Of a stretch of 25,328 nt of DNA, positions 6,661 through 24,245 are shown piece after piece. The notes beneath the pieces were generated by a model. It searched no databases, was not told where the DNA came from, and saw nothing but the letters and a program-made list of their open reading frames with translations. Position 1 is the stretch's first letter. Each line of letters starts with the position of its first letter. Origin of the DNA: a virus; IMG/VR virus record IMGVR_UViG_3300049432_000205, positions 1 through 25,328 of that record. One strand, given 5' to 3'. A program made the position numbers and the translations under genes.

Positions 6661-6675
6661 TGTGCTCACAAACTA

Positions 6676-6703: not shown

Positions 6704-6714
6704 TCCTCCATAGC

Positions 6715-6726: not shown

Positions 6727-6735
6727 ATAAAGTCT

Positions 6736-8697: not shown

Positions 8698-8778
8698 GGG
8701 GTTTGTGTAGAGTAAAACTCTCACATATATTACCAGATATTGAAAGATTACGAAAAGCGGAGCATACTCTAAATTATT

Positions 8779-9693: not shown

Positions 9694-9696
9694 GAC

Positions 9697-9789
9697 AGAA
9701 GACAGTAGACAGAATACAGTAGACAGTAGAAGAGTTCATTGAGTAAGAGGAAAGCTTCTTCCTTCTGTATTCTATATTCTGTATTCTAA
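9697..9789. repeat. Inverted array of CAGTAGA / TGTATTC words
   Basis: Words of the type agacagtagacagaatacag run from 9697 to about 9732 and their inverted forms (cttctgtattc, ctgtattc) from about 9763 to 9789, with a GTTCATTGAGT segment in the loop. The same two word families nest in the same order at 12358-12515. Confidence 0.7.
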
Positions 9790-9795
9790 AGAATT

Positions 9796-9831
9796 CCCGC
9801 CCGGTGCTTTGTTCACCTTGGGCGGGTTTTT
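9796..9831 (+). terminator. Strong intrinsic terminator after the RRM gene
   Basis: CCCGCCCGGTG (9796-9806) pairs with CACC-tt-GGGCGGG (9814-9826), a 2-nt bulge apart, followed by TTTTT. This is the clearest terminator in the window. Confidence 0.9.
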
Positions 9832-9851
9832 ACATTTATTTCCGGTATTAT

Positions 9852-10277
9852 ATGACCCCCGAACAGATACGCAGCGAGTTTACATTGATCTTTAACGAGG
9901 CGCGGGCCGTGCTCGAGGAAAAGAGATTTTTCGAGGTCAGCTTTGCCGTCGGCGATGGGCTCGAACGCTCGCGGTTTACCGCGCCCGGCGAAGCATTCCG
10001 ATCGTATGAGGCCCGGGTAGCGACCGGAAACAGGGACGTAGCGGTAAACGCCAAGACCGAAAAAATAGAATTTCGGGGGGCGAGCTACGCTCCTTTTTTA
10101 CTGGCCCTTTTTAAGACCTCACAGGGCGCGGCACTGGAATGGCCGGTCCAAAAGGTGCGCGAATTCAACGAGCTGGTAATGACGTCTTTGACCGCGATCT
10201 ACCTGGAATCGCTGGACGACGCGGACGCTCTTGTAGCGGTCGGGATCCGGGATGAGATGATCAAGGCAAGTTCATAG
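9852..10277 (+). CDS. Hypothetical 141-aa protein
   Basis: I recognise no family. It is soluble and has helical N- and C-termini (MTPEQIRSEFTLIFNEARAVLEE and VQKVREFNELVMTSLTAIYLESLDDADALVAVG). A central beta-rich part (FFEVSFAVGDG..RSRFTAP) lies between them. I chose ATG 9852 because the upstream TTG at 9804 lies inside the preceding terminator. No Shine-Dalgarno sequence is obvious. It is followed by a short array region and another small protein on the same strand. Confidence 0.65.
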   Translation: MTPEQIRSEFTLIFNEARAVLEEKRFFEVSFAVGDGLERSRFTAPGEAFRSYEARVATGNRDVAVNAKTEKIEFRGASYAPFLLALFKTSQGAALEWPVQKVREFNELVMTSLTAIYLESLDDADALVAVGIRDEMIKASS

Positions 10278-10359
10278 CGTTTATTGCGTTTGGAGCGTTA
10301 ATTGCGTTAACAAACTCCACGAACTCAACGAACGCTACAAACTCTATGAACTCAATATT
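10278..10359. repeat. Short-word array between two small genes
   Basis: GCGTTTATT/GCGTTTGGA-type words (10278-10310) are followed by AACTCCACG/AACTCAACG/AACTCTATG words up to six bases before the next ATG. The second half belongs to the same family as the GTTCGTTGA arrays elsewhere, inverted. Confidence 0.6.
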
Positions 10360-10725
10360 ATGGGATTTTTAAAAAGCATATTCGGTTCGGGCAAGAAAGC
10401 GGCGGCGGCCGTTGAAACCGAGAAGGGCGATGACGCGGCATGGCAGGAACCGGCTGAGGTCGAGATACCGGCTGCCCCGGCGCCCGAGATAAATATCGAC
10501 GAGGCTGAGCGGAAGGCGCTGGCCAGGCTGGCGCAGTCGGCGAACGGGACTTCGGCCGAGGCCTTTGGGCAGGGCATGGATATGGAAAGCATGGCGGCGC
10601 TCTACCGCCTGGACAAGCTGGTCAAGCTGGGCCTGGTAAAAAGGAGCCGGCCGATGTTTATGCAGCCCGAGGTTTATGAATTGACGGAACGCGGTCATCG
10701 GGTTATTGAATCATTTAGTGATTGA
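10360..10725 (+). CDS. Small protein with C-terminal winged-helix-like segment
   Basis: 121 residues. The N-terminus is short and basic/hydrophobic (MGFLKSIFGSGKKAAAA), then comes an Ala/Pro/Glu-rich linker (20-47). The C-terminal part, MESMAALYRLDKLVKLGLVKRS..VYELTERGHRVIE (75-117), has the recognition-helix, wing and final helix pattern of a winged helix, as in MarR- or PadR-like proteins, but it is too short for a full regulator. DNA binding is possible but not shown. The C-terminal codons (IESFSD) and the TGA stop are part of the TGATTGA word array that follows, so the true end may have been altered by repeat expansion. Confidence 0.6.
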   Translation: MGFLKSIFGSGKKAAAAVETEKGDDAAWQEPAEVEIPAAPAPEINIDEAERKALARLAQSANGTSAEAFGQGMDMESMAALYRLDKLVKLGLVKRSRPMFMQPEVYELTERGHRVIESFSD

Positions 10726-10836
10726 CTGATTGAATCATTTAGTGATTGACTGATTGACTGATTGACTCAATGGATCAATCACTCAATCACTCAATCACCC
10801 AATCAACCAATCACCCGATCACCCAATCACTCAATC
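10705..10836. repeat. TGATTGAC array and inverted AATCACTC array
   Basis: TGATTGACTGATTGA-type words run from inside the 3' end of the preceding gene to about 10770, then the inverted form (AATCACTC, AATCACCC words) runs to about 10836, ending inside the 3' end of the minus-strand zinc-ribbon gene. It could form one long hairpin between two convergent genes. Confidence 0.75.
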
Positions 10837-11307
10837 TTCCGGCCTCTCAACCAACGTCCTGGTGGTATGCTCGGTCACGCTCGAGACGGTATCCTGGGCG
10901 GTCCGCGGCTGGCCCTCGTTGAGGCCCTTTATCACGACGTCGGGCAGGGGGCGCGTGTCGGCGGGTGGTAATTCCGCTTTCTTTTCTTTCTTAGCGCCCC
11001 GCGTCCGGTGAAACAGCAGCCACAGCAAGCCTCCCTCGGAAACCAGCAGCAGCACAAAACACATCAACGCGATCGACATTACTACCTCGTCGCGAAAGCC
11101 GAGCTCTTTTTTCATCACGACCAGAAGGCCCATGATGATCCCGATACCGGCGATCGGGATCGCGAGGATCGCCGACACCAACAGATTGAACGACGATTCG
11201 GACATCTGTTCGGGCGCGCTATCTTTCTCGCCGCCGATCCGCGCACCGCAGGTGTTGCAGTAGCTGAGCCCGGGATTTACAGTATTTCCACATGCTTGAC
11301 AGAACAT
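10831..11307 (-). CDS. Zinc-ribbon membrane protein
   Basis: 158 residues from ATG 11307 on the minus strand. The N-terminus is a zinc ribbon with two CxxC knuckles (C3-Q-A-C6 and C17-N-T-C20), the common double zinc-ribbon type. Two hydrophobic helices follow (about 39-62 and 74-97). After them come a basic stretch (RTRGAKKEKKAE) and a Thr/Pro-rich tail with likely cytoplasmic location. I chose the second Met because the zinc ribbon normally begins MFCQACG or similar at residue 1. Such proteins are widespread and of unknown function. Its last codons (ERPED) merge into the TGATTGA/AATCACTC array shared with the convergent gene. Confidence 0.72.
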   Translation of the reverse strand: MFCQACGNTVNPGLSYCNTCGARIGGEKDSAPEQMSESSFNLLVSAILAIPIAGIGIIMGLLVVMKKELGFRDEVVMSIALMCFVLLLVSEGGLLWLLFHRTRGAKKEKKAELPPADTRPLPDVVIKGLNEGQPRTAQDTVSSVTEHTTRTLVERPED

Positions 11308-11373
11308 AATCAGCAATACGGTAGTTTAAGGGCTAAAGTTCGAAATGAGAAGTGAGGAGCCAGTATTTTGGGC

Positions 11374-11470
11374 ATTTTAAATTGCCGTTGGCTTTAAGCC
11401 GAATTGGATTGGGCTAAAGCCCGGATCTTTGGTGGATCCCGACCGTCAGCTAAAGCTGACGGCAATTTAT
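11374..11470. repeat. Palindromic element with TTAAATTGCCG ends (second copy)
   Basis: Outer ends 'ttttaaattgccg' and 'cggcaattta' form the stem base; inside are GGCTTTA..., GGGCTAAAGCCC and GTCAGCTAAAGCTGAC sub-palindromes. It is related to 883-1013. Just downstream (about 11475-11560) lies an AGATCAAAG/AGGTCAA word array running up to the 3' end of the four-TM gene. Confidence 0.7.
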
Positions 11471-11562
11471 AGGACCAAATCAAAGATCAAAGATCAAAGG
11501 TCGAGATCAAAGGTCAAGATCAAAGGTCATAGGTCAAAAATCCCAAATCCGAAATCCCAAAT

Positions 11563-12018
11563 TCAACGGTCCTGTCTATCCTGGTTAAAGAACGCGTCCG
11601 CCCGCTCCCCGCGCGCCAGCCGGTATACATGGAAACCGAGCGGCCCGAATACTATCAAGCCCACGGCAAACGCTCCCAATGCCTTAGCCGTGTCAGGGTA
11701 CCGGTTAAATGCCGCGAAGCTGTTCAGAACACCCCCGATAAAAACCAGCGAAAGGCCGCCCACGGCGATCCACCGGCCGTATTTTTTCCGCTTCCACAGG
11801 CCCAGGCACCCGATAATAAAAACGATGGAGAGAGCGAGCGAGGGGACTAGTGAAACAATGTTCAAAACAGACGGCTCGATGGGGCCGGACCATCTGACCA
11901 TATAATAAATATTCCATAGCCCGGCCCATAACCAGACAGCCGCCAGGAGGCCCAATATCACCTGGGCGATCCATACCGAGGGAGGACGGCGAGAGTTTGT
12001 TGAGTTCGTTGAGTCCAT
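11563..12018 (-). CDS. Four-transmembrane protein of unknown function
   Basis: 151 residues from ATG 12018 (minus strand). Four hydrophobic helices can be drawn: VWIAQVILGLLAAVWLWAGLW, SVLNIVSLVPSLALSIVFIIG, RWIAVGGLSLVFIGGVLNSF and ALGAFAVGLIVFGPLGFHVY. Short polar loops and a charged C-terminus (RLARGERADAFFNQDRQDR) complete it. It is probably an inner membrane protein with both ends in the cytoplasm. The first ten residues (MDSTNSTNS) are encoded by GTTCGTTGA words read on the other strand, so the true start may lie slightly later. The longer ORF from 12177 is rejected because it overlaps another gene and its extra N-terminus is also repeat. No family is recognised. Confidence 0.65.
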   Translation of the reverse strand: MDSTNSTNSRRPPSVWIAQVILGLLAAVWLWAGLWNIYYMVRWSGPIEPSVLNIVSLVPSLALSIVFIIGCLGLWKRKKYGRWIAVGGLSLVFIGGVLNSFAAFNRYPDTAKALGAFAVGLIVFGPLGFHVYRLARGERADAFFNQDRQDR

Positions 12019-12093
12019 AGAGTTCGTTGAGTCATTGGGACCGCATTCTTTCTTCCAATCCAAAATCCAAAATCTAAAATCCAAAATCCAGTT
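12003..12093. repeat. Arrays between and inside two minus-strand genes
   Basis: GTTCGTTGA words (about 12003-12035) encode the start of the four-TM protein. CAAAATC words (about 12055-12093) supply the last residues (LDFGF) and the TAG stop of the small protein upstream on the minus strand. Confidence 0.65.
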
Positions 12094-12343
12094 GTCTTTG
12101 CCGTCGGTTGTGGATCTCGATCTCGACGAAGTCGATAAAGGCTTCGAAGGCGATATCGCGCTCGACCGGGCCGGCAAAGGCCGGGCTGCGGCCCATGACG
12201 TGGTTCCGTGGATCGTGGACCCGGAAATAATATTCGTCCGACCGGGTCCTGAGCCTTTTGATAGAAGCCGGGTAGTCAGCCCGGCGCAGGATCTGTTCGA
12301 GCTCGGCGGGCAGATCGGTTGTTATGTGGTCGGCAAGGGACAT
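12074..12343 (-). CDS. Hypothetical 89-aa protein
   Basis: Starts at the ATG at 12343 (minus strand; MSLADHITTDLPAEL). It is a compact soluble protein of mixed charge with a likely helix PAELEQILRRADYPASIKRL, a central YYFRVHDPRNHVMG segment and a C-terminal helix RDIAFEAFIDFVEIEIHNRR. No family is recognised. The last five residues and stop come from a GATTTTG array. The overlapping plus-strand ORF is less protein-like (no hydrophobic core pattern, ends in an array), so I prefer this strand, but with moderate certainty. It would precede the four-TM gene in one minus-strand unit with a 55-bp gap. Confidence 0.55.
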   Translation of the reverse strand: MSLADHITTDLPAELEQILRRADYPASIKRLRTRSDEYYFRVHDPRNHVMGRSPAFAGPVERDIAFEAFIDFVEIEIHNRRQRQLDFGF

Positions 12344-12357
12344 AGCTCTCAAGTCAG

Positions 12358-12515
12358 AATACAGTAGACAGAAGACGGAATACAGAAGACAGAGGCCGGA
12401 ATAAGACTAGTTTATTGAGTTCGTTGAGTTATTGAGTTCGTTGAGAAAGAAAAACTCAATAGACGCAACGAACTCAATAACTCTACGAACTCGTTTCCTT
12501 CTGTATTCTGTGACT
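12358..12515. repeat. Nested inverted arrays of two word families
   Basis: The outer family (agaatacagtagacag, agaagacag; 12358-12397) pairs with ccttctgtattctgtgactctg (12497-12518). The inner family (GTTCGTTGAGTTATTGA; 12411-12445) pairs with ctcaatagacgcaacgaactc and following (12453-12493). The result is a two-tier hairpin about 160 bases long. The remaining ~100 bases up to the scaffold start are unique sequence with no clear promoter. Confidence 0.75.
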
Positions 12516-12615
12516 CTGTGGTGAATTAACTTTTCCTTAAAAATCATCGAAATTACCGTTTACCTTAAAAGCTGCTCTGAAGGATTCCGGATACATGCCG
12601 TAATCTCATTCGTGT

Positions 12616-13143
12616 ATGAGCGTTAAGCCCCCGGCGAATCAGCCCGACACCAAACAACAAAATAAGATCACGAACTTGGCAGACGGCCAGGCGGCCCCAG
12701 CTGATACCAGCGCCCTGCTCTACACCGAAAGCGATCTCGAGGCCCGGGCCGAGGAATTGAAACGCGCGGGGACCGATGCTCTCCAGGCGGAAAACGAGGA
12801 ACTCAAAAAAAGCCTGCGCCTGCGCGACGCTCGCGACGAGATCACCGCCGTGCTGAAAAAGGCCGGGGCGAGATCGCCCGAGCTGCTTTTTAACTCGGCG
12901 AAGGAATCGCTGCAGTTCGATACGGACGGACGCGTCGCTAACTTGACCGCGCTGGTCGAGAGGCTCCAAGGCAAGTTTCCGGAACAGTTCGGGTTCGAAG
13001 CACCGGCCGGATCTATCGATGGCGGCGCCGGGAAAAACTCGGACACGAACTACCTGACAAAAGAAAAGCTGTCTAAAATGACAGCCGCCGAAATATCCAA
13101 GCTGGATTGGCAGGATGTGAGAAAAGTCCTCGCCGAAGGCTAG
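12616..13143 (+). CDS. Phage scaffold protein (GP20-like)
   Basis: Scaffold proteins guide coat assembly into a procapsid and are then lost. The 175-residue product has the expected architecture. A polar, disordered N-terminus (to about 35) is followed by a coiled-coil with charged heptads, SDLEARAEELKRAGTDALQAENEELKKSLRLRDARDEI (about 39-75). A conserved helix VLKKAGARSPELLFNSAKESLQF comes next, then a Gly/Ser linker and a basic-acidic C-terminal helix that would contact coat protein (LTKEKLSKMTAAEISKLDWQDVRKVL). Its place directly before the major capsid gene is canonical. A GTTCATTGA array begins in its stop codon. Confidence 0.85.
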   Translation: MSVKPPANQPDTKQQNKITNLADGQAAPADTSALLYTESDLEARAEELKRAGTDALQAENEELKKSLRLRDARDEITAVLKKAGARSPELLFNSAKESLQFDTDGRVANLTALVERLQGKFPEQFGFEAPAGSIDGGAGKNSDTNYLTKEKLSKMTAAEISKLDWQDVRKVLAEG

Positions 13144-13593
13144 TTCATTGAGTTCATAGAGTTCGTAGAGTTCATTGAGATAAGGTCGCGTAGCGACCGG
13201 TTGAATTTAGCCGTGTCCTTCAGGGCACGGTCAGCCAGAATAACCCCATCGTCCGTCGCGTCAGCGACGATTGAAAATAAATCTCCGATCCACACGTCGC
13301 TGACGCGACGACCACGTTCTCGCGGCACACCGTGGGTTGAAACCCACGGCTAAATTCAAAATATCGCTAACGCGACCGTTAAAATTGCACGGCAAAATTC
13401 CCAAAGCGCCGCGAATATTCTGAACGCTGCGCGTTCATTGCAAGCGGGACGCTTGCGCTCCAGTCGGCGCGTTGAGCCAAGGCCGGCGCTCCAATCACAA
13501 AACACCGATCTGTTAAAAGAGTGCCGGCAGGATGCCGCCACGACAGCCGGCAAGATGCCGGCGCTACAGTCAAAACATCACAGACAAAAAATT
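13144..13593. repeat. 450-bp repeat complex before the capsid gene
   Basis: No gene is supported. 13144-13180 is a GTTCATTGA/GTTCATAGA array. 13184-13377 is a nested palindromic element (see separate entry). 13438-13572 contains GCAAGCGGGACGCTTGC and several gccggca/tgccggc palindromes separated by unique bases, a further repeat type. The last repeat ends about 20 bases before the capsid ATG. Confidence 0.75.
13184..13377. repeat. Nested palindromic element, copy A
   Basis: The ends are GGTCGCG..(13184) and CGCGACC (to 13377). Inside lie, in order, GGTCGCGTAGCGACC; TTTAGCCGTG with TCC..AGGG and CACGG; CGTCGCGTCAGCGACG; CGTCGCTGACGCGACG; and CCGTGGGTTGAAACCCACGGCTAAAT. The TTTAGCCGTG and CACGGCTAAAT arms pair over the whole interior, so the element is palindromes within a palindrome. 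Copy B is at 18752-18928 upstream of the tail chaperone gene. No ORF is encoded, so this is MITE- or REP-like. Confidence 0.8.
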
Positions 13594-14445
13594 ATGGCAC
13601 TGAATTTTATACCTACCGTATGGGCGGCGAGATTGCTCGCTGCATTGGAAAAGGCCCTGGTTTACGCGCAGGACGGAACCGTCAATCGCGATTACGAGGG
13701 CGAGATAAAGGAATCGGGCAACACCGTGAAGATCGGCTCGATCGGCGAAGTGAACATCGGCGATTATGTGAAGGACACAAACATCTCCGACCCCCAGATA
13801 CTCACCGACGCGGACCAGAGCCTGGCTATCGATCAATCGAAATATTTTAATTTCTATGTCGATAGCGTCGACCGCGCCCAGCAAAACGTCAACGTCATGG
13901 ATGAAGCCATGCGCCGCGCTGCCTGGGCCCTTCGCGAAAAGGCCGATACGTTCATTGCCGGGATAATGGATACGGCGGTGCCGGCCGGCAACAAGATCGG
14001 CTCCACCACCACGCCGAAGATCCCGACCAAGGACGATGCCTATGAATACCTGGTCGATCTGGGCGTGCTGCTCGATGAGGCTAATACGCCGATCGACAGC
14101 CGTTTCGTGGTCGTGCCGGCATGGTTCCACGGGCTCCTCTTAAAGGATGAGAGATTCGTGAAATCGGGAAGCTCGAGATCGGACGCGACCCTCGCCAACG
14201 GCGAAGTGGGCGAAGCCGCCGGCTTCAAGATCCTGAAATCCAACAACGTCCCCAACACCACGGGAACGAAGTATAAGATCATGGCCGGCCACTCGATCGC
14301 CACCGCCTACGCCGAGCAGATCGTCGACCTGCAAACATACAAACCGGAAAAACGATTCGGCGACGCGGTCAAGGGGCTTCATGTCTACGGCGCGAAGGTC
14401 GTGCGGCCGGATAGCTTAGCCGTGTTGATAGCGAATAAAGCTTAG
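13594..14445 (+). CDS. Major capsid protein (P22 coat-like)
   Basis: 283 residues. The N-terminus MALNFIPTVWAARLLAALEKALVYAQ followed by VNRDYEGEIKESGNTVKIGSIGEVNIGDY is the signature of the P22 gp5-like branch of HK97-fold coat proteins. The middle (about 90-200) is the spine helix and P-domain, and the C-terminus (GDAVKGLHVYGAKVVRPDSLAVLIANKA) is the conserved A-domain end. It forms the icosahedral shell around scaffold and portal. I chose ATG 13594; the frame is open back to 13438, but that extension is palindromic repeat sequence and not capsid-like. No Shine-Dalgarno sequence precedes the start. The ORF is intact. Confidence 0.92.
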   Translation: MALNFIPTVWAARLLAALEKALVYAQDGTVNRDYEGEIKESGNTVKIGSIGEVNIGDYVKDTNISDPQILTDADQSLAIDQSKYFNFYVDSVDRAQQNVNVMDEAMRRAAWALREKADTFIAGIMDTAVPAGNKIGSTTTPKIPTKDDAYEYLVDLGVLLDEANTPIDSRFVVVPAWFHGLLLKDERFVKSGSSRSDATLANGEVGEAAGFKILKSNNVPNTTGTKYKIMAGHSIATAYAEQIVDLQTYKPEKRFGDAVKGLHVYGAKVVRPDSLAVLIANKA

Positions 14446-14663
14446 TCGACCGAGTTGACCGGGTTTTGTGAGATCAGCCGGTCCCACCGCTATCAAAGTG
14501 CATAAGTTAGACAAACAAAACTCGGCAAACTCGGTTAACTCGGCAAACTAGTTTCCGGGCCTAAACGGCCCGACCAAGTTCACCGGGGCGGAAAGGGAGA
14601 GGAATTTAGGAAGCGTAAGTCGATCGCCATTCCCACATAAGCCCCTGTGAGTAATTACTAAAA
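14446..14663. repeat. ACTCGGCAA / GAGTTGACC array region
   Basis: GACCGAGTTGACCGGGTTTT (14449 on) and ACTCGGCAA/ACTCGGTTA words (14519-14549) form inverted arms around a central segment 'gtcccaccgctatcaaagtg' that recurs in altered form at about 16652-16675. GGGCCTAAACGGCCC-like and other short palindromes follow. The last 60 bases before the next ATG are unique. Confidence 0.65.
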
Positions 14664-15122
14664 ATGAGAGCTGAAATAATCAGTATAAGCAACGGCAGCC
14701 TGCAGGGCAGCAAGATATCGATGGTCCGGGGCGACACGCTCGAGATCACGCTGCGGGTGCTGCGCGACGACGATTCGCCGGTCCTGCTCAACCGTTTCGA
14801 GGGTTACGGGGGGACAGGGAACGAGCGCGGCCCGGACACGGCAACCAATCATCGCCTTTCGATGGAGTTCACGGCGCCCTTAAAAGACGGCGGCGATGTC
14901 CGCCTGATCTATCGCACGACCCAATCGGCCCGGCAGGTGCTCTATGGCACCACCGACCAATTGACCGTGCTTATCGATCAGAGGCTGACGCGCCGGCTGC
15001 CCGCGCCCCTGGCCCTGAATTTCGATATGCAGATCACGGAGTTCATCGGTGAAGGTCGCCGGATGAGCACTATCTACCAGGGCGTCCTGCAGGTCGATAA
15101 GGACATCACCTCGACTTATTAG
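14664..15122 (+). CDS. Phage structural protein of unknown role, 152 aa
   Basis: It sits directly after the capsid gene, where head-fibre, decoration or connector genes usually lie. The sequence is beta-rich (VRGDTLEITLRVLRDDDSPVLL, about 21-42; HRLSMEFTAPLKDGGDVRLIYRT; QLTVLIDQRLTRRL) and ends with FDMQITEFIGEGRRMSTIYQGVLQVDKDITSTY. This 'programmed for a short variable-load beta domain' look resembles N-terminal domains of baseplate or decoration proteins, but I do not recognise a specific family. No signal peptide or membrane segment. ATG 14664 has no Shine-Dalgarno sequence. The next start follows after only 21 bases. Confidence 0.75.
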   Translation: MRAEIISISNGSLQGSKISMVRGDTLEITLRVLRDDDSPVLLNRFEGYGGTGNERGPDTATNHRLSMEFTAPLKDGGDVRLIYRTTQSARQVLYGTTDQLTVLIDQRLTRRLPAPLALNFDMQITEFIGEGRRMSTIYQGVLQVDKDITSTY

Positions 15123-15143
15123 TTAACTCGCAAAAACTATTCT

Positions 15144-15464
15144 ATGACCCCGATACAAAAGATCGGCCGGATGACGGCCTCCGATTCGGAACCGGTATTG
15201 GCCGTTGAAGACCTCGAGCAGCTGCTCGCGGACAGCGGGCGCCCGGATGCGGCCGGCCGGCCGCCGACCGACCTCAACTGGACCCCGACCTACGATCTTA
15301 ATGCCGCGGCGGCCGAAGGCTGGCGCTGGAAAGCTGCCCGCGCCGGTGAGCTGACCGCCGTTGACCTCGACGGCACGAAACTATCGGCCGAACAGATCTT
15401 CGACCACTGCGAGCGAATGATCCAGGTCTATTCGCGGCGCATTAGGGCCACCGTGAGTCTATAG
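15144..15464 (+). CDS. Head-tail connector-like protein, 106 aa
   Basis: A small acidic protein with a helical C-terminal half (LSAEQIFDHCERMIQVYSRRIRATVSL) and a Trp-rich middle (DLNWTPTYDLNAAAAEGWRWKAARAGELTAVDLDGT). The position between capsid and HK97 gp10-like genes and the fold pattern fit a head-completion or adaptor protein that binds beneath the portal. I assign this by synteny and size; no diagnostic motif is visible. Only 21 bases separate it from the gene before, so the two are probably translated from one message. Its TAG stop is part of a GTCCAAG word array that begins there. Confidence 0.68.
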   Translation: MTPIQKIGRMTASDSEPVLAVEDLEQLLADSGRPDAAGRPPTDLNWTPTYDLNAAAAEGWRWKAARAGELTAVDLDGTKLSAEQIFDHCERMIQVYSRRIRATVSL

Positions 15465-15597
15465 TCCAAGGTCCAAGGTCCAAAGTCGGACGAGAGTTCC
15501 GCGGGATAACAGGATAGACCGGGATAGAACAGGTCAGAACCGGGAGCGGTAGAGACCGGGTTGACTTTGGACTTTGGACCTTGGACTTTGGACATTT
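15462..15597. repeat. GTCCAAA array and inverted CTTTGGA array
   Basis: TAGTCCAAGGTCCAAGGTCC words (15462-15488) begin with the previous gene's stop codon. After a unique centre, CTTTGGA words (15560-15597) form the inverted arm and stop five bases before the next ATG. Confidence 0.8.
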
Positions 15598-15601
15598 TCT
15601 T

Positions 15602-15961
15602 ATGAAAGCTGAAACCTACCGAAACCTGACCACCGGCGCGCTCGACCGGCTCCGCATCCAGATCTTCGGTGACGAATCGCTAAAACTGTTTCAGATCACA
15701 CCGGAGACCGGCGAGGCCGAGGTGGCCGAGCTTACCCAAAACTGGGGAGGCCGGCGGCTGGTAACCACGACCGATGCCGGACGCGCCGAGGCGGGCGCCT
15801 GGCAGTTCCAGGTTAAGGCCGACGACGATTGGCAAACCTCGCAAACCTATATGTCGCAGGTGGTCGCGCTCCGCGTGGGCGGCCGGCGATGGAAGGTTAA
15901 AAAGATCGAAACGCCGGTCGGGAACGTGCGGGTGTGGAAGATCAAAGCTGAGGTTCAATGA
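15602..15961 (+). CDS. Head-closure candidate, 119 aa
   Basis: The product starts MKAETYRNLTTGALDRLRIQIFGDESL and is beta-rich, ending RRWKVKKIETPVGNVRVWKIKAEVQ. Size, beta-barrel-like alternation and location between a connector and an HK97 gp10-like gene suit the head-closure (stopper) protein that seals the portal after packaging. This is inferred from gene order. I chose ATG 15602; an upstream TTG at 15581 lies in the GTCCAAA/CTTTGGA array. The TGA stop runs into a TGATTGAG array. Confidence 0.65.
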   Translation: MKAETYRNLTTGALDRLRIQIFGDESLKLFQITPETGEAEVAELTQNWGGRRLVTTTDAGRAEAGAWQFQVKADDDWQTSQTYMSQVVALRVGGRRWKVKKIETPVGNVRVWKIKAEVQ

Positions 15962-16046
15962 AGAATTGAGTGATTGAGTGATTGAATGATTTGAATCATT
16001 CTTCCAATCACTTAATGACTCAATCACTCAATCACTCAATCACCAG
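15959..16046. repeat. TGATTGAG array and inverted AATCACTC array
   Basis: The array starts in the stop codon region of the preceding gene (AGAATTGAGTGATTGAG) and, after GAATCATTC, runs as AATCACTC words to the base before ATG 16047. It fills the whole 85-bp gap as one hairpin. Confidence 0.85.
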
Positions 16047-16424
16047 ATGCTCGACGTAAAGATCGACAACAAGATTCCCGAGTTGTTCCAAAAGCTCGAA
16101 GCGGCGGTTTCCAGGTTTGCCCAAACCTCGGCCGCCGATATCGGCGAAGCAGCGCGGGCTGCGATGGGCGGGCCCCGATCGGGCCGCCTGTATGGTTCGC
16201 ACCGGGCGTCGGCCCCGGGCGAGTCGCCCGCCAGCCGCTCGGGCAAATACATTTCCAGCATCGAGGTATTAGAGGGCGCCAGCCTCGAGGCAAAGGTCGG
16301 CGTAAATGTTCCTTACGCGCCGGTCCTCGAATACGGGCTCAACCGCCCGCTGTGGAGCAAGGTCCTGACCCAGGTGCTGCCGACGCTGGATGCGAAACTC
16401 AACGATGAAATTGCTGGACTATGA
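16047..16424 (+). CDS. HK97 gp10-like tail-completion protein
   Basis: Proteins of the HK97 gp10 family join head and tail or terminate the tail tube at the neck. Residues 47-70 (GRLYGSHRASAPGESPASRSGKY) followed by SIEV, then VPYAPVLEYGL (about 89-99), match the conserved G-R-x-Y-x-x-H-R-A-S-A-P-G-E-x-P and Y-A-P-x-L-E-Y-G blocks of the family. At 125 aa the length is right. A helical N-terminus (IPELFQKLEAAVSRFAQ) precedes them. Its TGA overlaps the start of the next gene (ATGA), evidence of translational coupling. Confidence 0.85.
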   Translation: MLDVKIDNKIPELFQKLEAAVSRFAQTSAADIGEAARAAMGGPRSGRLYGSHRASAPGESPASRSGKYISSIEVLEGASLEAKVGVNVPYAPVLEYGLNRPLWSKVLTQVLPTLDAKLNDEIAGL

Positions 16425-16615
16425 AGGCAAATAATGAGCGGCGCAGGGAAATGAGCTGCACGCGGAAACGGGCTTTTCAAACCGAAAGCTATGCTGTTAT
16501 GTACCTTGAAAATGTACTAAAGCGCGCGGGCGAGATGGATGTTTACCGCTGCGGATTCTGTAAAGAGTTTCATCTCGGACACCATCCGAGAGTTCACCGA
16601 GTTAACCGAGTTTAG
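16421..16615 (+). CDS. Small phage zinc-finger-like protein, 64 aa
   Basis: A small protein with C13, C44, C47 and His51/His54/His55: CTRKRAFQTESYAVMYLENVL and then YRCGFCKEFHLGHHP. The CxxC followed by H-L-G-H is a common pattern in phage-encoded small proteins of unknown function and suggests a zinc site. The ATGA overlap with the preceding gp10-like gene supports ATG 16421; ATG 16451 (MSCTRKRAF) is the alternative. The last eight residues (RVHRVNRV) and the TAG stop are encoded by a GAGTTAACC/GAGTTCACC word array, so the natural C-terminus may be shorter. Confidence 0.7.
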   Translation: MKANNERRREMSCTRKRAFQTESYAVMYLENVLKRAGEMDVYRCGFCKEFHLGHHPRVHRVNRV

Positions 16616-16736
16616 CGAGTTTGCCGAGTTAGTTAACCGAGTTTGTGAACTCAGCGCTCCCGCTATCGCAGTGAGAAAGCTGGATTAAAGAAACTCGGCA
16701 AACCCGGCAAACTCGGTCAACCCACCAAACTAATAT
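16590..16736. repeat. GAGTTAACC and ACTCGGCAA inverted arrays
   Basis: GAGTTCACC/GAGTTAACC/GAGTTTAGC/GAGTTTGCC words (16590-16650) start inside the zinc-finger gene. Their inverted form (ACTCGGCAA, CCCGGCAA, ACTCGGTCAA; 16692-16730) ends about 9 bases before the next ATG. The centre holds 'gctcccgctatcgcagtgag', related to 14488-14508. Confidence 0.8.
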
Positions 16737-16738
16737 AT

Positions 16739-17188: not shown

Positions 17189-17195
17189 CACAGGG

Positions 17196-17336
17196 CGGTC
17201 CAAAGTCCAATGTCCCAAGTCCAAAGTCGGATGAGAAATTTTACCTTCTTGATGAATGTACCGAATGTTTCGATCAGTATGGCCGCGTGACCGGTCTTGA
17301 CCTTGGACCTTGGACTTTGGACCTTGGACCAAACCG
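17196..17336. repeat. GTCCAAA array and inverted CTTGGAC array
   Basis: GGTCCAAAGTCCAATGTCCC words (17198-17228) and ACCTTGGACCTTGGACTTTGG words (17297-17333) form inverted arms around unique sequence. 28 bases separate the second arm from ATG 17365. Confidence 0.75.
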
Positions 17337-17364
17337 ATCCTAAATCTTGAATAACTAATAAACT

Positions 17365-18405: not shown

Positions 18406-18407
18406 AG

Positions 18408-18488
18408 ACGGTCCAAAGTCCGTAGTCCAAAGTCCAAAGTCGGACGAACGCTTTTGACCTTGGACTTTGGACCTTGGACCTTGGACTC
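18408..18488. repeat. GTCCAAA array and inverted CTTGGAC array (second pair)
   Basis: GGTCCAAAGTCCGTAGTCC words (18411-18441) and ACCTTGGACTTTGGACC words (18458-18487) flank a short unique loop and fill the gap between tube gene and next ATG. Confidence 0.85.
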
Positions 18489-18498
18489 ATGAGAAAAT

Positions 18499-18714
18499 AT
18501 GCCAAAAAAAATAATAAAAACAACCGAAGAATTGACCGAGGAATTCTTTGCGCTCGAGCGCACGGAATATGAAAAGCGCGTGCCCGCGGCGTTTCCGCGA
18601 GTACCGGTAAAGGCGCTGGCTGAGTCGGCCGAGTTACCGGACTTTGAAGACAGCCCCCCGGAACCGCTGGGAGTGGGCATGGAAGAACTGCCGTTGGAGA
18701 AAGCCGGGACTTAA
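18499..18714 (+). CDS. Small acidic phage protein, 71 aa
   Basis: MPKKIIKTTEELTEEFFALERTEYEKRVPAAFPRVPVKALAESAELPDFEDSPPEPLG and a short tail. An N-terminal helix rich in E and K and a Pro-rich acidic C-terminus indicate a small, partly disordered protein. Its place between tail tube and tail chaperone is where small accessory tail genes occur. I do not recognise a family. A preceding array ends about 11 bases upstream; no clear Shine-Dalgarno sequence. Confidence 0.6.
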   Translation: MPKKIIKTTEELTEEFFALERTEYEKRVPAAFPRVPVKALAESAELPDFEDSPPEPLGVGMEELPLEKAGT

Positions 18715-18943
18715 GGCTTAGCCGATTTCGGATCCGGGATTTTGGATTGCAGGTCGCGTAGCGACAACCTGATTTTAGCCGTGTCCTTTAGGGCACGGTC
18801 ACAGGTTAGCAAGGACTGCGTCGCGTCAGCGACGGCTGATCAATCGTCGCTCGCGCGACGGGATTCGAATTCAAACCTGTCCGTGGGTTGAAACCCACGG
18901 CTAAATTCACACGGTCGCTCACGCGACCAGGGAGACATACATT
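18715..18943. repeat. Repeat region with nested palindromic element, copy B
   Basis: A GGATTTTGG word (18733-18749) is followed by the nested palindromic element at 18752-18928: same order of palindromes as copy A (GGTCGCGTAGCGAC; TTAGCCGTG..CACGG; CGTCGCGTCAGCGACG; CGTCGCTCGCGCGACG; CCGTGGGTTGAAACCCACGGCTAAAT), ending GCGACC. It ends 15 bases before the TTG start of the next gene. Confidence 0.8.
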
Positions 18944-19735
18944 TTGAACGAAGAAGTTTTGGAAATTGAAGAGAACCACTCCGTCGCTGACACGGTTGGT
19001 AACGAGGGGAGTAGGAAGGTGGACGCCGGCGCGTCCAGTGCGGGCCGCCCGCCCGCGCTCCCAAGCTACAAGCTCGACTGGCCGGATGCCGAGATCCGAC
19101 TTGCCAAAGGGCGGTTTACGCATACCCTGTCCCGGCCGTCCGCCGAGATGATGATCGCGCGCGAGGACGAGCTCCAGCCCGAGATCCCGATCGCCAAGGA
19201 CGGGAGCTTTACCCTGCCGGATTCGACCGCGCAGGAGGAAACCGACGCCAAATACTACGACCGGATCGTCATAAAAACCGGGGGCTACACCGCCGAAGTC
19301 CCGACCGCTCACAAGGCGGCCGCCTTCCAGGGGCTCTTTCGCCGCGAGATCTATCTCGACCCCGAGTGCGATATTTTCGGCGACGAGGTCACCATTATTG
19401 AAGAGATCGGCGGATCGGACGAGCCGGATTTTACCGTCCGCCATACTTTGCGACAGCCGACCGAGGCCGAGCTGAAGAAGTGCCGGCAGGGGTCGTCCGG
19501 CGGGCGCCTTTTGCCCGACAAACGCGGGCGGCAAAAGCTTGTCACCTCGTCGAATCTTCGCTCGGCGATGCGTTTTTACAACACCTGGCTGGTCCGGATC
19601 GAGGGCGCGACCGCCGGCGAAAATACCTTCTCCCCCGATACACGGGACGAGTTTGTCGCCCTGGTCGACCCGCTAATCCAGCGCAAGGTCGTCACCGTTC
19701 TGGTCGACGAACTGACCGGCGGATTATTGGACTAG
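18944..19735 (+). CDS. Tail assembly chaperone (upstream ORF)
   Basis: 263 residues. It lies directly before the tape measure and is followed by an overlapping ORF in the -1 frame, the standard layout of lambda G/GT-type tail chaperones, which coat the tape measure during tail assembly. The start TTG 18944 has a good Shine-Dalgarno sequence (GGGAGA, 8-base spacing), unusual here since neighbouring phage genes lack one. The N-terminus to about 45 is disordered; then come a beta-rich part (YKLDWPDAEIRLAKGRFTHTLSR) and helices (TDAKYYDRIVIKT..). The final helix (DEFVALVDPLIQRKVVTVLVDEL) resembles chaperone C-termini. Fusion with the next ORF by frameshifting is probable but not shown. The start region follows a repeat and could be extended. 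Confidence 0.7.
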   Translation: MNEEVLEIEENHSVADTVGNEGSRKVDAGASSAGRPPALPSYKLDWPDAEIRLAKGRFTHTLSRPSAEMMIAREDELQPEIPIAKDGSFTLPDSTAQEETDAKYYDRIVIKTGGYTAEVPTAHKAAAFQGLFRREIYLDPECDIFGDEVTIIEEIGGSDEPDFTVRHTLRQPTEAELKKCRQGSSGGRLLPDKRGRQKLVTSSNLRSAMRFYNTWLVRIEGATAGENTFSPDTRDEFVALVDPLIQRKVVTVLVDELTGGLLD

Positions 19736-20127
19736 CCGAAGCTCTCGCCGCTCATTTCTGCGGCCATATCGACTGCGTCAACCAGACGAAGGGCGAGAGC
19801 TGCCCGGGTTCCCCGGAATGCCGGGATACGCGCGGAATGCCGCTAAACCGGTACTCCGCAACCCAGACGGAGGATGAAATATGCAAGGGCTGCCGGCTGC
19901 TGCCGACCAAGCCGGAAGCGGTCCCCGAGGAGCTGCAGGGGTTTATCTACCTGGCGCTGAGCCTGTCGGAACTTGAGCGCGCGGGCGCGAAATTCGATTA
20001 CCCCGACGCGCTGAGCCCCCTGGAATGGGACGCCCTTCGCGGGCTGGTCCGGGGCCGCGAGCGGGCCGAAAATCTCCGGCAGGAACGCGAGCGGGCGGAC
20101 GAGAGATTGAGGGAGAGAAGAAAATGA
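19723..20127 (+). CDS. Cys-rich tail chaperone extension in the -1 frame (start uncertain)
   Basis: The -1 frame is open from 19402 to 20127 and reads clearly as protein from about 19723 on: AEALAAHFCGHIDCVNQ, then CPGSPECRDTRG and ICKGC, five or more Cys that could bind zinc. An acidic-basic helix follows to the end (LSELERAGAKFDYPDALSPLEWDALRGLVRGRERAENLRQERERADERLRERRK). No ATG or GTG lies close to the point where it takes over; ATT at 19723 and ATG 19834 are possible starts, but expression by -1 frameshifting from the upstream ORF is the more likely route because of its position before the tape measure. I found no canonical X-XXY-YYZ heptamer in 19402-19733; GCAAAAG at 19531 has an A-AAG core but is far upstream. 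The coordinates given are a minimum. Confidence 0.6.
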   Translation: MIGLAEALAAHFCGHIDCVNQTKGESCPGSPECRDTRGMPLNRYSATQTEDEICKGCRLLPTKPEAVPEELQGFIYLALSLSELERAGAKFDYPDALSPLEWDALRGLVRGRERAENLRQERERADERLRERRK

Positions 20128-20207
20128 ATGATTGAAGGATTGAGTCATTGAATCATTTCTTCAATCACCCAATCACCCAATCACTAAATCACTCAATATC
20201 TTCAAGT
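20125..20207. repeat. ATTGAAGGATTGAG array and inverted AATCACCC array
   Basis: The array starts in the previous stop codon (ATGATTGAAGGATTGAG), turns at about 20150 and continues as AATCACCC/AATCACT words, ending 20 bases before the tape measure start. Confidence 0.8.
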
Positions 20208-20227
20208 CCGCAATCCCAAAATGAATT

Positions 20228-23200
20228 ATGGCTGCTCATTTTACAATTACAATTGGCGCAGAGACCCGCGAGTTTCTTCCACCTATCAACGAGGTTAAAA
20301 AAAAGGTCGAGGAGGTGAAAAAAGAGGTCGAGTCGCTGGCCAAGACCAAACTCGAGGAGCTTTCAAAAAAATTCACGGACTGGGCCGGCAAGATCAAGGC
20401 GGTCGGCGAAGCCCTCTCGAAAGTGGGTAAAACGCTGACCGACAGCCTCACCACGCCGATCTTTAAATTTACCGGCCTCGACAAGCTTTCGAAGGATACG
20501 AATGAAAAACTCGGGAAGCTCAGCGAAAGGTTCAAGGCTGTCTTCTCCAAGCTCTTCGAACCCGTTTTGCCGGTGGTCTCGAAGGCCGTCGACGGGCTTA
20601 TCGGGATGATCGACAAGCTCATAACCTGGTTCGACAACGCGCCCGCGGGCGTAAAGGTTTTCGTCGCCGTGCTCGCGGGCATCGCTATGGCGATAGGCCC
20701 CGTAATAGGCGCGGTCGGCACCGCACTCACGGCCATCGCGGGATTTGTCACGGCCCTTGGTGCGATCGCCGCTTCGGGCACCGTCGGCCTTGTGGTCGGT
20801 GTGATCGCCGCGGCCATCGCCGGGCTGGTCGCCGGGATCGGGGTCGCCATCGGTGTCGTCTACGCGCTGAAACAGGCTTGGGATAACGGGTTCGGCCCGA
20901 TCGCATCGGTCGTGGCCATCGCGGTCGGTCTTATTATGGCCGCCATTTTGCCGATCATCGGGCTGCCGGTGCTGCTCGGCGCGGTCGCCATGACAATCTA
21001 CGAGATGTGGGCGACCAATTTCGGCGGGCTCCAGGAATTTACGGCGATAGTTTGGGCCAAGGTCCAGGAATATGTAGCCGTCGCGATGGCCGCGATCAAG
21101 CAGTTGGTCGACGATATCGGCGGCGATATCATTGCGTGGTGGAATGAAAATTACCCGCTTATCCAGCAGACCGTCCAGACCGTATCGGATGCGATACGCG
21201 CCTATATCCAGAATTTTCTAAACAATGTAAAAGCGTTTTGGGACCTCCACGGCGAGCAGATAATGTCGGTCGTCAAATCGATCTGGAGCATCATCTCGAC
21301 CATCGTCCGCACCGGCGTTAACGTTATCCTCGGCGTGGTCCGGATGGTGATGCAGATCATCAACGGCGATTGGGCCGGAGCCTGGAACACGGCCCTCAGT
21401 ATCGTTCAGAAGATCAACAGCGCCATCTGGAAGATCCTCGGGGAGCTCGGGAATATCGTCATCAAGGCCCTGGCGTTTGTCCTCACCGAGATCGCGAACT
21501 GGGCGATCAAGGTCGGCGCGATGGCAGCGAAGATCGGCGAGAATATCGTCAACGGGATCATCAACGGCATCTCGGCGCTGGCCGGCACCCTGAGGAATTA
21601 CGCGAGGAATCTCATCACGAGCCTGTTCGGGGTGATGAACGGCGCCGCCGAGACGCATTCGCCCTCGCTGGTCACGACCCGGATGGGCATCTTTATCGGC
21701 CTCGGCCTGGTGAACGGCCTGAAGCTTGCGGCCCCGCTGGTAAACGCGGCGGCCAAAAAGATGGTCGCCGAATCGCTCGGCAACATGGGCAAAGAGGCGC
21801 AACAGGCGGTCAAGGAATTCCAGGCCATGGCCGGCTCGACCGCGCAGCAGCGGCAGGACGTCGTAACCGTCGCTCAATTCGGCGAGGGTAAATCTGATCT
21901 CGATGAGCTGATCAAGCTTCGCGCCGAGCTCGATCAAAACGTCAGCCAGGCGCTGCCAAACACGCTGGCCGGTGTCAATTCCGAGCTGGCGGAGCTGGGC
22001 AAGCAAAAACAGGGCATAAAGGACGCGGCCGACATGCTGGCGCAGTTCGACGAGCAGATCGGCAAGATCAAAAATAAGGACGTCCGCCAGAGCAATGTCG
22101 ACCGGGCCAACGAGCTGTTGAACGACCCGGTCCGCTCGCGCGGCATTGCCGACGGCGGCGCCGAGCTCAGAAAAAAAGCCGGGGAGCTGGATGAGCTGAA
22201 CCGCGTCGAGGCCATCACGGCGGCGCGTGAAAAAATGACCGCGTCCGTGGCCGGCGCCAACCTGCAGCTGGCCAACGAGATCGCGCTGCTCGAAGCGAAA
22301 AAGGCGAAGAATTTCGAGATGACCGCGGCCGAGCAGCAGGCTTTCCAGCAAAATCTGAAGAACGCCGAGGAGCTCAGGAAGTTTCGCGAAGCCCTCGAAA
22401 AAGACGGCCTCAATAAATCGGATATCGACGGCCTGGTCGAGGAAATGCAGCGCCAGCAGGAAGCGATCGAACAGCTGAAGGCGTCGAAAGCCTCGCTCGA
22501 GGCCCAGGACAAACTCTACACCGACACCATGGGCGGCATGAATGCGACCCTCGCCGAGCTCAACCAAAAACTCGCCGGCAATACCCAGCTGACCGAAGCC
22601 GACACCCTGGCCAAGATCAAGCTGACCGAGGCGTACCGGCAGCTGACCGACGAGCAGAAAAAGAACCTCGACGACAAGGCCAAAGAGGTCGCGAAGAAGC
22701 GGGAGCAGGTCGAGGACTTTGAAAAGGCCAAGAAGCAGATGGACGAATTCAAGGGCTTTATCAAGGATTCGCTCAACACCCTTGTCAACGACGGCTTTGG
22801 CGCGATGTTCAAGAGCATCCTCAATAAATTCAAGAAGATGCTGATCGATATGGCCATCGAGTGGATCACGTCCAAGCTCTATAAGCTGATCTTTAAAGAC
22901 GGCCAGGCATCGGGCACGGGTTCGGGCGGCGGTGTAGGCGGGATACTCCAGTCGTTCCTCGGATTCCTGGGTATCGGGAAAAAAGGCTCGGGTGCGGCGG
23001 GTTCGGATGGCGGCGGCGATGATGGGGCTAAGGTTGGCAGTTTTGGCGGGTTGTTCGACCCGAAACCGAATATTTTGAACGGGGGCAAACCGAGCGCCCT
23101 GGCCGGAAAGATGAGCGGTATCGGCGCCTTGGCCACCCTGGCCGGAAGCATTATCGGCGGGCGGGTCGGCGGGATCATGTCGATGGCCGGCACGGGTATG

Positions 23201-24025
23201 TCGATCGGCGCAATGTTCGGGCCGTGGGGCGCGGCCATCGGCGCCGGGGTAGGCGCGCTGGTCGGGCTCTTTATGGGCGACCCGAAGAAGAAGGTCGACA
23301 AGAAAGAGAACATGCCCAAGCTGCAAAAGGGCTTTACCGACGCCATGCAGCAGCTCCGCGACCTGCTCAGCGACCGCAACGCGCTCTTTGGCGACCCCGA
23401 AGGCGCGGTGGCCAAGGCGATGGAGATCCGCGGGGCGATAGCCTCGGGTTTCGGCATCGAGTTCCAGTCGAAGAAGTATAAGAAAGAGGCCGCGAAACTG
23501 ATCGCGGCCAAGCTGGTCGAGGCCGATCAGCTCATCAAGCAGATCAAGGAAATGGCCGACATGGCACGCTCCGCCAACAGCGTAAATACCCGGCTCGAAG
23601 CCGAATTCGCGACCGGCGTATTTGCCGACCGGGCGTTCATCCGGCAGCACGCCAATTTCAAACGCCGCAACGGTCTGCTGGCCGGCGGCTGGACGGGACG
23701 CGACACGCTGCCCTCGATGCTGGCGGCGGGCGAGATGGTGCTCAACCCAAAGCAGATCGACCGCGTCAGGTCCAATGCTGGGTTCGACGCCTTCCGCGGT
23801 GCCGGCATCCCGAACTACGCTTCGGGGACGTTCGTTGGAAACGCGCCCGCGGCAAACGCGCCGGCCGCCCCGGCCCAGCCGGTGACGGTCCAGATCGTGC
23901 TCAACAATTCGGGCATCGTCGAATCTGACATCAAGGGCGTGCTGGTAAACGGCCTGAAACAGCCGGACGTCCAGGTCGAGCTCGTCAAGGCCTACGACAA
24001 GGGGAAAACAAGGGCGAGGAATTGA
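20228..24025 (+). CDS. Tail tape measure protein
   Basis: At 1265 residues it is the longest gene. The tape measure sets tail length and is ejected with DNA. Features in order: an N-terminal coiled-coil (about 20-130, KKKVEEVKKEVESLAKTKLEEL), a long hydrophobic region with several potential membrane helices (about 139-260), and a helical middle. Long heptad-rich coiled-coils follow (about 510-850). After a Gly-rich linker (about 895-940) comes a second hydrophobic segment (about 962-1018, GSIIGGRVGGIMSMAGTGMSIGAMFG). The C-terminal block WTGRDTLPSMLAAGEMVLNP (about 1155-1175) is a conserved tape-measure motif. By the usual ~0.15 nm per residue, it would specify a tail of about 190 nm (inference). 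ATG 20228 is in frame with the first helix; no Shine-Dalgarno sequence. The TGA stop opens a TGAATCATTGGG array. Confidence 0.93.
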   Translation: MAAHFTITIGAETREFLPPINEVKKKVEEVKKEVESLAKTKLEELSKKFTDWAGKIKAVGEALSKVGKTLTDSLTTPIFKFTGLDKLSKDTNEKLGKLSERFKAVFSKLFEPVLPVVSKAVDGLIGMIDKLITWFDNAPAGVKVFVAVLAGIAMAIGPVIGAVGTALTAIAGFVTALGAIAASGTVGLVVGVIAAAIAGLVAGIGVAIGVVYALKQAWDNGFGPIASVVAIAVGLIMAAILPIIGLPVLLGAVAMTIYEMWATNFGGLQEFTAIVWAKVQEYVAVAMAAIKQLVDDIGGDIIAWWNENYPLIQQTVQTVSDAIRAYIQNFLNNVKAFWDLHGEQIMSVVKSIWSIISTIVRTGVNVILGVVRMVMQIINGDWAGAWNTALSIVQKINSAIWKILGELGNIVIKALAFVLTEIANWAIKVGAMAAKIGENIVNGIINGISALAGTLRNYARNLITSLFGVMNGAAETHSPSLVTTRMGIFIGLGLVNGLKLAAPLVNAAAKKMVAESLGNMGKEAQQAVKEFQAMAGSTAQQRQDVVTVAQFGEGKSDLDELIKLRAELDQNVSQALPNTLAGVNSELAELGKQKQGIKDAADMLAQFDEQIGKIKNKDVRQSNVDRANELLNDPVRSRGIADGGAELRKKAGELDELNRVEAITAAREKMTASVAGANLQLANEIALLEAKKAKNFEMTAAEQQAFQQNLKNAEELRKFREALEKDGLNKSDIDGLVEEMQRQQEAIEQLKASKASLEAQDKLYTDTMGGMNATLAELNQKLAGNTQLTEADTLAKIKLTEAYRQLTDEQKKNLDDKAKEVAKKREQVEDFEKAKKQMDEFKGFIKDSLNTLVNDGFGAMFKSILNKFKKMLIDMAIEWITSKLYKLIFKDGQASGTGSGGGVGGILQSFLGFLGIGKKGSGAAGSDGGGDDGAKVGSFGGLFDPKPNILNGGKPSALAGKMSGIGALATLAGSIIGGRVGGIMSMAGTGMSIGAMFGPWGAAIGAGVGALVGLFMGDPKKKVDKKENMPKLQKGFTDAMQQLRDLLSDRNALFGDPEGAVAKAMEIRGAIASGFGIEFQSKKYKKEAAKLIAAKLVEADQLIKQIKEMADMARSANSVNTRLEAEFATGVFADRAFIRQHANFKRRNGLLAGGWTGRDTLPSMLAAGEMVLNPKQIDRVRSNAGFDAFRGAGIPNYASGTFVGNAPAANAPAAPAQPVTVQIVLNNSGIVESDIKGVLVNGLKQPDVQVELVKAYDKGKTRARN

Positions 24026-24245
24026 ATCATTGGGTGATTGGGTGATTGATTCATTGAATCATTGGGTGATTGGGTGATTGATTCATTGAATCATTGGGTG
24101 ATTGGGTGATTGATTCATTGAATCATTAAGAGAGATTGGAAGAATCACTCGATCGGTAGATCACTCAATCAGTAAAGCTCTCAATGACTCGATCTCTTAA
24201 TCTTTCAATCACTCAATGACTCAATCAGTAAATCACTAAATCCCT
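24024..24245. repeat. 32-bp tandem repeat and inverted AATCACTC/AATCAGTA array
   Basis: Three exact 32-nt copies start at 24024, 24056 and 24088 (core gaatcattgggtgattggg) and a partial fourth at 24120. The first begins in the tape measure stop codon. After 24140 the array turns into AATCACTC, AATCAGTA and CAATGACTC words to about 24240, forming one inverted pair 220 bases long that ends four bases before the next ATG. No gene is seen. Confidence 0.85.

Follow-up and report, generated by a model that had tools for sequence, protein, structure and literature searches.

The unit that fills the gaps between genes in the DNA analysed here is a palindromic cassette and not an array: a word array following the stop codon of one gene is joined through a spacer to its reverse complement, which lies before the next gene. 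We think it rather probable that these cassettes are neutral or selfish extragenic palindromic repeats that turn over fast and are kept in check where selection acts on coding sequence. They are hairpin-forming inverted repeats whose stems are 7-10-nt word arrays, with a limited set of families in use within a lineage.

The window, i.e. the whole stretch of DNA that was analysed, is a 25,328-base virus record containing siphophage structural genes (portal, scaffold, major capsid, connector, head closure, tail tube and tape measure; gene order is the basis for these assignments other than the tail genes) and about 10 kb of host-type genes. The latter (tRNA, RNA-binding protein, zinc ribbon/zinc-ribbon protein, sigma-like factor, metallophosphoesterase) lie between portal and scaffold (2425-12615), a distance of about 1.2-1.4 kb in the array-free L011 and L012. 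The tRNA was the sole match of the window in an Rfam search. The RNA-binding protein puts the host within Acidobacteriota, near Pyrinomonadaceae; this host is a soil acidobacterium with a remnant-like phage cluster. Of 119 Pyrinomonadaceae genomes, 42 carry a major capsid homologue, mostly single-copy and mostly 71-83% identical. The terL, portal, scaffold, major capsid and connector genes are clustered in all seven family genomes checked, terL or scaffold being undetected in some (loci: window 1-2424 and 12616-15464; L141-L171, L172-L211 and L315-L316), and no tail genes were detectable beside the cluster in these seven genomes at E 1e-8. The terL-to-connector cluster is possibly a domesticated capsid cluster or a gene-transfer-agent-like element; a literature search on domesticated capsid clusters gave no match. 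The last ORF of the window (24249-25328) has a C-terminal end resembling a Hint/intein-type domain (CFTLDTPVWTPDGDIPIGELRAGQRVVSF..) and no match in PHROG.

Four contigs from other metagenomes (L007, L008, L009 and L014) have the same gene order as the window, with most proteins 77-98% identical. Arrays of 7-, 8- and 9-nt words were found by TRF in most window gaps, in agreement with the earlier note, which had also given each gap its own word; this is partly so, about 12 word families recurring across gaps (GTCCAAR at 15464, 17198 and 18411; GAGTTYRTT at 11993, 12412 and 13142). Missed in that reading were the inverted pairs present in most gaps and the difference in gap contents from strain to strain. 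The arrays and cassettes of the window, with one neighbouring terminator, are as follows:

2422-2441: portal stop (TGA at 2422-2424) with a GATTTGG array (TRF 2423-2441), one arm only.
8954-9105: cassette of 7-nt GATTTTG words (left arm 8954-8985, right arm 9072-9105), flanked by a small ORF and by the gene of the RNA-binding protein; L014 has a related cassette and L009 a partly different one.
9692-9787: cassette of 7-nt AGACAGN words with a 9-nt half-array inside (left arm 9692-9730, overlapping the stop at 9691-9693; right arm 9763-9787); fold z -1.5.
9796-9831, plus strand: separate intrinsic terminator, CCCGCCCGGTG..CACCTTGGGCGGGTTTTT, from sequence comparison.
10277-10353: cassette of 9-nt GCGTTTATT/GAGTTYRTT words separating the 141-aa gene from the winged-helix gene, overlapping the stop at 10275-10277.
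10705-10836: cassette of 8-nt GARTSATT words, the left arm (10705-10767) covering the winged-helix gene stop (10725), the right arm extending to 10836; fold z -5.7.
11993-12090: 9-nt GAGTTCGTT array (11993-12032) and 7-nt AATCCAA array (12057-12090), the latter supplying the 89-aa minus-strand gene with its LDFGF tail and its stop.
12351-12516: concentric cassette in a divergent gap, with outer AAGACAG words (12351-12403 and 12499-12516) and inner GAGTTCGTT words (12412-12445 and 12453-12492); fold z -5.3.
13142-13179: 9-nt AGTTCATAG array, single arm, overlapping the scaffold stop (13141-13143); the slot carries other words in L007, L008 and L009.
14446-14549: cassette of 9-nt CCGAGTTNR words after the major capsid gene (right arm 14518-14549); fold z -3.6.
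15462-15593: cassette of 7-nt GTCCAAR words (at 15464-15487 and, as the right arm, at 15563-15593), with the connector stop (15462-15464) within the left arm; fold z -9.3.
15959-16043: cassette of 8-nt GAGTGATT words, starting at the head-closure stop; fold z -6.5.
16590-16731: cassette of 9-nt GAGTTNRCC words, the left arm encoding RVHRVNRV and the zinc-finger protein's stop; fold z -6.0.
17198-17330: cassette of 7-nt GTCCAAR words, the family being kept in L007, L008 and L014; fold z -3.9.
18411-18486: cassette of 7-nt GTCCAAR words, the family being kept in L007 and L008, with GTCCCAR in both arms in L014; fold z -8.1.
20125-20216: cassette of 8-nt GARTSATT words, overlapping the stop at 20125-20127; fold z -1.8.
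24021-24242: cassette of 8-nt words, the left arm (24021-24127) with three 32-nt higher-order copies and covering the tape-measure stop (24023-24025), right arm 24144-24242; fold z -3.2.

Non-array palindromic families (TTTAAATTGCCGT..ACGGCAATTTA, GTCGCGTAGCGAC..CCGTGGGTTGAAACCCACGG, CTCCCCTCCTTACGAAGGAGGGG) occupy the same gaps, at 887-1010, 13184-13380, 18759-18940 and 691-774, and also turn over between strains. The gap between the h152 and connector genes (15123-15143) is 21 nt long (TTAACTCGCAAAAACTATTCT) and resembles what a deleted cassette would leave behind; L007, L008 and L014 have cassettes of 99-132 nt there.

The palindromic form was assessed in the window and in related genomes, chiefly G004 (a 6.1-Mb genome, of which about 0.4-0.65 Mb was sampled), the source of the genome-wide statistics; the G004 genes were called by a hexamer-based finder, which makes stop positions reliable and starts less so. 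An inverted-repeat score of at least 40 was reached by 46% of G004 gaps, 33% of window gaps and 23% of gaps in four relatives, against 0% of dinucleotide shuffles, and fold z lies between -3.2 and -9.3 in nine of 11 window cassettes. Identity between G004 arms is 0.926 at mirror positions versus 0.77 (0.771) between words within an arm, and this mirror agreement is broken by permutation of word order (p=1e-8). The 118 G004 cassettes comprise 14 families of at least two members, which have word order and often loops in common, and 15 singletons. Words of 7 nt dominate in this genome, 8-, 9- and 10-nt words also occur, and GGG tracts are absent from the cassette words. One cassette may be nested concentrically around another, as AAGACAG around GAGTTCGTT in the window or GTGATRA around AGTTTTC or GGTAAAT in G004. 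The earlier reading, a simple tandem expansion of single words of the STRR type with no palindromic unit, accounts for the clean 7/8/9-nt periods and for the 32-nt higher-order repeat at 24021-24127, but hardly for gaps that mostly hold an array and its reverse complement with mirrored variants, or for families dispersed together with their loops, and we regard it as scarcely tenable. The 5' arm was G-rich in 59 of 60 G004 cases; a transcription-linked signal was considered for this strand polarity and dropped, the polarity being a property of the words because the unit is a palindrome.

Cassettes are placed with respect to stop codons and not starts. The edge of an array block lies within 10 nt of a stop in 0.71 of cases in the window (0.43 upon random placement in the same gap), 0.70 in the four relatives (0.26) and 0.50 in 400 kb of G004 (0.27), whereas no excess over random placement was seen at starts. 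Right-arm ends fell within 8 nt of an in-frame ATG 17 times in G004 (27 expected, every in-frame ATG being allowed), three times in the relatives (2.8 expected) and twice in the window (1.9 expected); the arrays that had been said to abut start codons do end within 1-15 nt of several ATGs, but no more often than by chance. Where at least 80 nt is free in a co-directional gap, left arms still begin no more than 8 nt from the stop in 24 of 75 G004 cases (4.3 expected, p=2.5e-12) and in seven of 12 in the relatives (0.6 expected); right ends come that close to the start in one of 75 and one of 12, respectively. Stop anchoring was not seen in convergent gaps with free space (0/14 and 1/14). The TA of the stop codon was considered as a target and rejected, as the paired bases of G004 palindromes do not continue across the stop.

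Eight stops had been listed as lying inside or starting an array. Seven of them overlap one: 2424 (2423-2441), 10725 (10705-10767), 12074 on the minus strand (12057-12090), 13143 (13142-13179), 15464 (15464-15487), 16615 (16590-16631) and 24025 (24021-24127); the eighth, 15961, lies 4 nt from the array at 15965-15991. Three further stops, 9693, 10277 and 20127, overlap an array as well. The claim that RVHRVNRV and LDFGF are array-encoded was borne out. Where stops are overrun, the protein ends in an array-encoded tail that varies from strain to strain (141-aa protein, winged-helix protein, connector, zinc-finger protein, tac2). Neither of the two outcomes that the earlier note named as refuting it was obtained, the placement of arrays at stops not being random and the ORF ends not being conserved where overrun (g157, winged-helix, connector, zinc-finger, tac2). 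Identity of the last ten residues drops by 0.17 in genes with a following gap; there is no such drop (-0.08, in six comparisons only) in genes that overlap the next one.

Inside genes no palindrome was found in 1200 G004 windows, compared with 189 of 388 gaps, which is consistent with elements that are tolerated nowhere except from a stop codon to the start region of the following gene. Of the two readings offered in the earlier note, that selection at coding sequence alone stops the arrays fits best with this absence and with array overrun into C-termini that differs per strain. Stop-hugging is more frequent for word-array stems (50/82) than for non-periodic palindromes of the same genome (19/64, p=2e-4), which suggests that arrays grew outward to the ORF limit, with the reservation that the contrast is confounded with gap length. 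The missing anchoring in convergent gaps is not well predicted by a pure outward-growth model.

Cassettes are mostly in the same gaps across the window and the four contigs, and gene pairs with 4-nt overlaps (16421 and 19732) never carry them. Arrays were present in both strains in 98 same-slot comparisons, of which 41 had the same word family (17.7 +- 3.6 expected) and 57 had none in common; cassettes are therefore partly inherited and quickly replaced. In L010-L013, with proteins about 40-75% identical, the homologous gaps (those between connector, head closure, tail completion, zinc-finger, tail terminator and tail tube genes) are 0-20 nt long and empty.

Beside these variable slots, a leader of about 110 nt ahead of the 152-aa gene (about 14550-14663; CCGGGCC..GGCCCGACCAAGTTCACCGGGGCGG..) is kept in L007, L008, L009 and L014 though the preceding cassette changes. 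It matches no Rfam family and is a possible regulatory RNA. A long leader ahead of the RNA-binding-protein gene (9106-9360) is likewise conserved in L009 and L014, with a variable cassette upstream.

Outside the phage cluster, cassettes occur genome-wide in many genomes of the class Blastocatellia. The TTTTGGATTTTRGATTTTGGATT pattern is present in 60 of 162 genomes, up to 301 times per genome, about equally on both strands and often in close inverted pairs, with a reversed control near zero; the 9-nt GAGTTYRTW word is found in 16 of the 162. In the genome closest by capsid identity, G080, 33 palindromes were counted in 156 sampled gaps within and outside the capsid cluster, on contigs partly selected for array matches. 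Even the rpsP-KH-rimM-trmD-rplS operon carries cassettes. At one of its junctions six genomes of the G018-G029 group have six different arrays between identical borders, the order being stop, cassette and a conserved segment ahead of the ATG; the array-free G029 has 24 nt there and no cassette.

A hairpin directly behind a stop codon invites comparison with intrinsic transcription terminators, in this case ones with unusually long stems, and inverted repeats are enriched in bacteria generally at +50 to +80 bp behind stops (PMC13155455). The cassettes, however, start at 0-8 nt and not at +50, at least seven T within the 12 nt after the right arm occur at a frequency of 0.09 versus 0.11 in random intergenic DNA, and cassettes are located inside operons that require read-through. 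Behind the differing cassettes of the rrm slot there is a separate terminator (9796-9831), which is conserved in four strains (the window, L008, L009 and L014). On account of the intragenic absence, the lack of T-tracts and of target duplications, and this separate terminator at one slot, the cassettes are probably not terminators, and ordinary long-stemmed terminators seem to us very improbable. The second reading of the earlier note, a role in transcript ends or insulation, receives no support from the same right-arm and terminator data, from the cassettes inside the ribosomal-protein operon or from the sense strand, where a G.U excess is absent.

An intercistronic role for the RNA hairpin is possible. 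Spelled out as 3' exonuclease protection, processing sites or lower polarity, with any hairpin serving and the words free to drift, it would account for a hairpin form that is kept while words change in both arms, for placement that follows stops and not starts, and for the use of the same slots by many genomes. Among 148 co-directional cassettes read in the sense strand, however, G.T mismatches were not above A.C mismatches (130 vs 137, p=0.71) and thus gave no sign of selection for RNA pairing; divergent G004 gaps, where there is no 3' end, also hold cassettes, and close relatives manage with gaps of 0-24 nt. We consider such functional RNA hairpins unlikely.

The cassettes have REP/REPIN traits, namely extragenic placement and dispersed multi-copy inverted doublets able to form hairpins, and mobilisation as REPIN- or MITE-like elements by a transposase preferring gene-end sequences (e.g. 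HUH Y1/RAYT) would explain the families with common loops and word order. Y1_Tnp genes are common (139 of 162 genomes of the class), and the absence of target duplications suits HUH transposition, which leaves none. Against this, the families have no ends in common, and a GTAG or CGTC tag was seen at the outer edges of only 4 of 172 cassettes each, below control tetramers. RAYT as the driver appears doubtful, as Y1_Tnp counts are out of step with array load: zero were detected in the array-rich MAGs G023, G035 and G037 (which may be incomplete), whereas G011, G014 and G117 have 16-25 copies and no word-pattern matches. The target-site duplication expected of a DDE-type MITE was not found either, direct repeats in the flanks being at the null level for all lengths of 3-7 and duplications of TA or anything longer being absent. 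Transposase-borne elements of this kind are in our judgement quite unlikely.

A further proposal is that cassettes are intercistronic hairpins of a class whose palindrome is kept by selection or hairpin-templated copying and whose words are exchangeable; junctions would be fixed slots where the hairpin is regenerated with a new word per lineage, and losing the hairpin nuclease SbcCD might permit this. SbcD (TIGR00619) is above the curated cut-off in 15 of 162 genomes, most others having only a diverged metallophosphoesterase. As a discriminating cause of arrays its loss was rejected, and it would be at most permissive because the gene is below the cut-off in array-rich and array-poor genomes alike. 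We hold this proposal to be unlikely, though not far-fetched.

For neutral or selfish repeats under fast turnover, we propose that new copies arrive at, or regenerate in, the short stretch between a stop and the next start region, to which they would be confined because selection removes insertions elsewhere. The word arrays would then lengthen by slippage up to the stop codon and sometimes overrun it, providing a new stop and tail, and fast loss and replacement of cassettes would leave a different word per strain in the same slot. A role in transcription termination would be unnecessary. Spread by insertion is what we infer; no mobilising enzyme was identified, no target duplications flank the cassettes and no insertion event with near-identical flanks was caught. 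The pronounced mirror symmetry of the arms could alternatively be a sign of selection on pairing.

If this explanation is right, hairpin repeats with fast turnover sit at the gene junctions of an entire group of uncultured soil bacteria, coding density in the lineage is lowered to about 0.60-0.67, and protein C-termini and stop codons are routinely rewritten. The cassettes would offer a natural experiment on the effects of intercistronic hairpins on operons, and a system for asking how palindromic repeats arise, copy and get replaced without an obvious transposase. Caution is advised in annotation, as the repeats shape ORF ends and terminator predictions in such genomes.

Among known systems, the cyanobacterial STRR heptamers (Calothrix) resemble the cassettes in being tandem heptamers with several words per genome; they are not known to be described as palindromic pairs that fill junctions, nor as exchanged from one strain to another. 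The closest published case is that of the stop-hugging, often inverted GGGAATC heptamers of Xanthomonas (Rehm et al. 2015, PMC4692102), which makes the earlier statement that the gene-edge arrangement is not known too strong. The GGGAATC and GGGGA(C/T)T heptamers of Xanthomonas/Nostoc are mainly intergenic, on the coding (G-rich) strand and mostly 0-50 bp from the stop, some overlapping it, with 70 inverted convergent pairs in Xcc and 75 in Xac (PMC4692102). The cassettes share with them the tandem 7-nt words near stops and the convergent inverted pairs. The published heptamers, however, are one word per genome, G-quadruplex-forming and in the same gene context between species in 83% (PMC4692102), whereas about a dozen families of 7-10-nt words are found here in one lineage, in up to half of the gaps, nested concentrically and swapped between related strains; a single G4-forming word in fixed gene context does not describe the 57 of 98 same-slot comparisons that share none. 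REPINs are extragenic inverted doublets forming hairpins, and REP/REPIN with RAYT (PMC3116915) are like the cassettes in their dispersed families, symmetrical arms and variable spacer, and unlike them in having a conserved 16-mer instead of word-array stems, and a GTAG tag, the cassettes having several families per genome with no common end and an abundance that seems not to be tied to Y1 transposase genes. The TAACTGA heptamers of Beggiatoaceae (PMC4679880) are also intergenic arrays that touch ORF edges, with indels in 7-nt steps and neighbours without arrays that have shorter gaps, but these are a single word, mostly in one orientation, directly before start codons, unlike the palindromic cassettes anchored at the stop codon. 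A literature search on repeats of Acidobacteria/Blastocatellia gave no match, and no precedent for many families per lineage, nesting or fixed-slot word replacement was found in the papers cited here on heptamer repeats and REPINs. The cassettes combine traits of heptamer repeats (PMC4692102, PMC4679880) and of REPINs (PMC3116915), and new here are the many word families coexisting in one lineage, their concentric nesting and their swapping at fixed slots.
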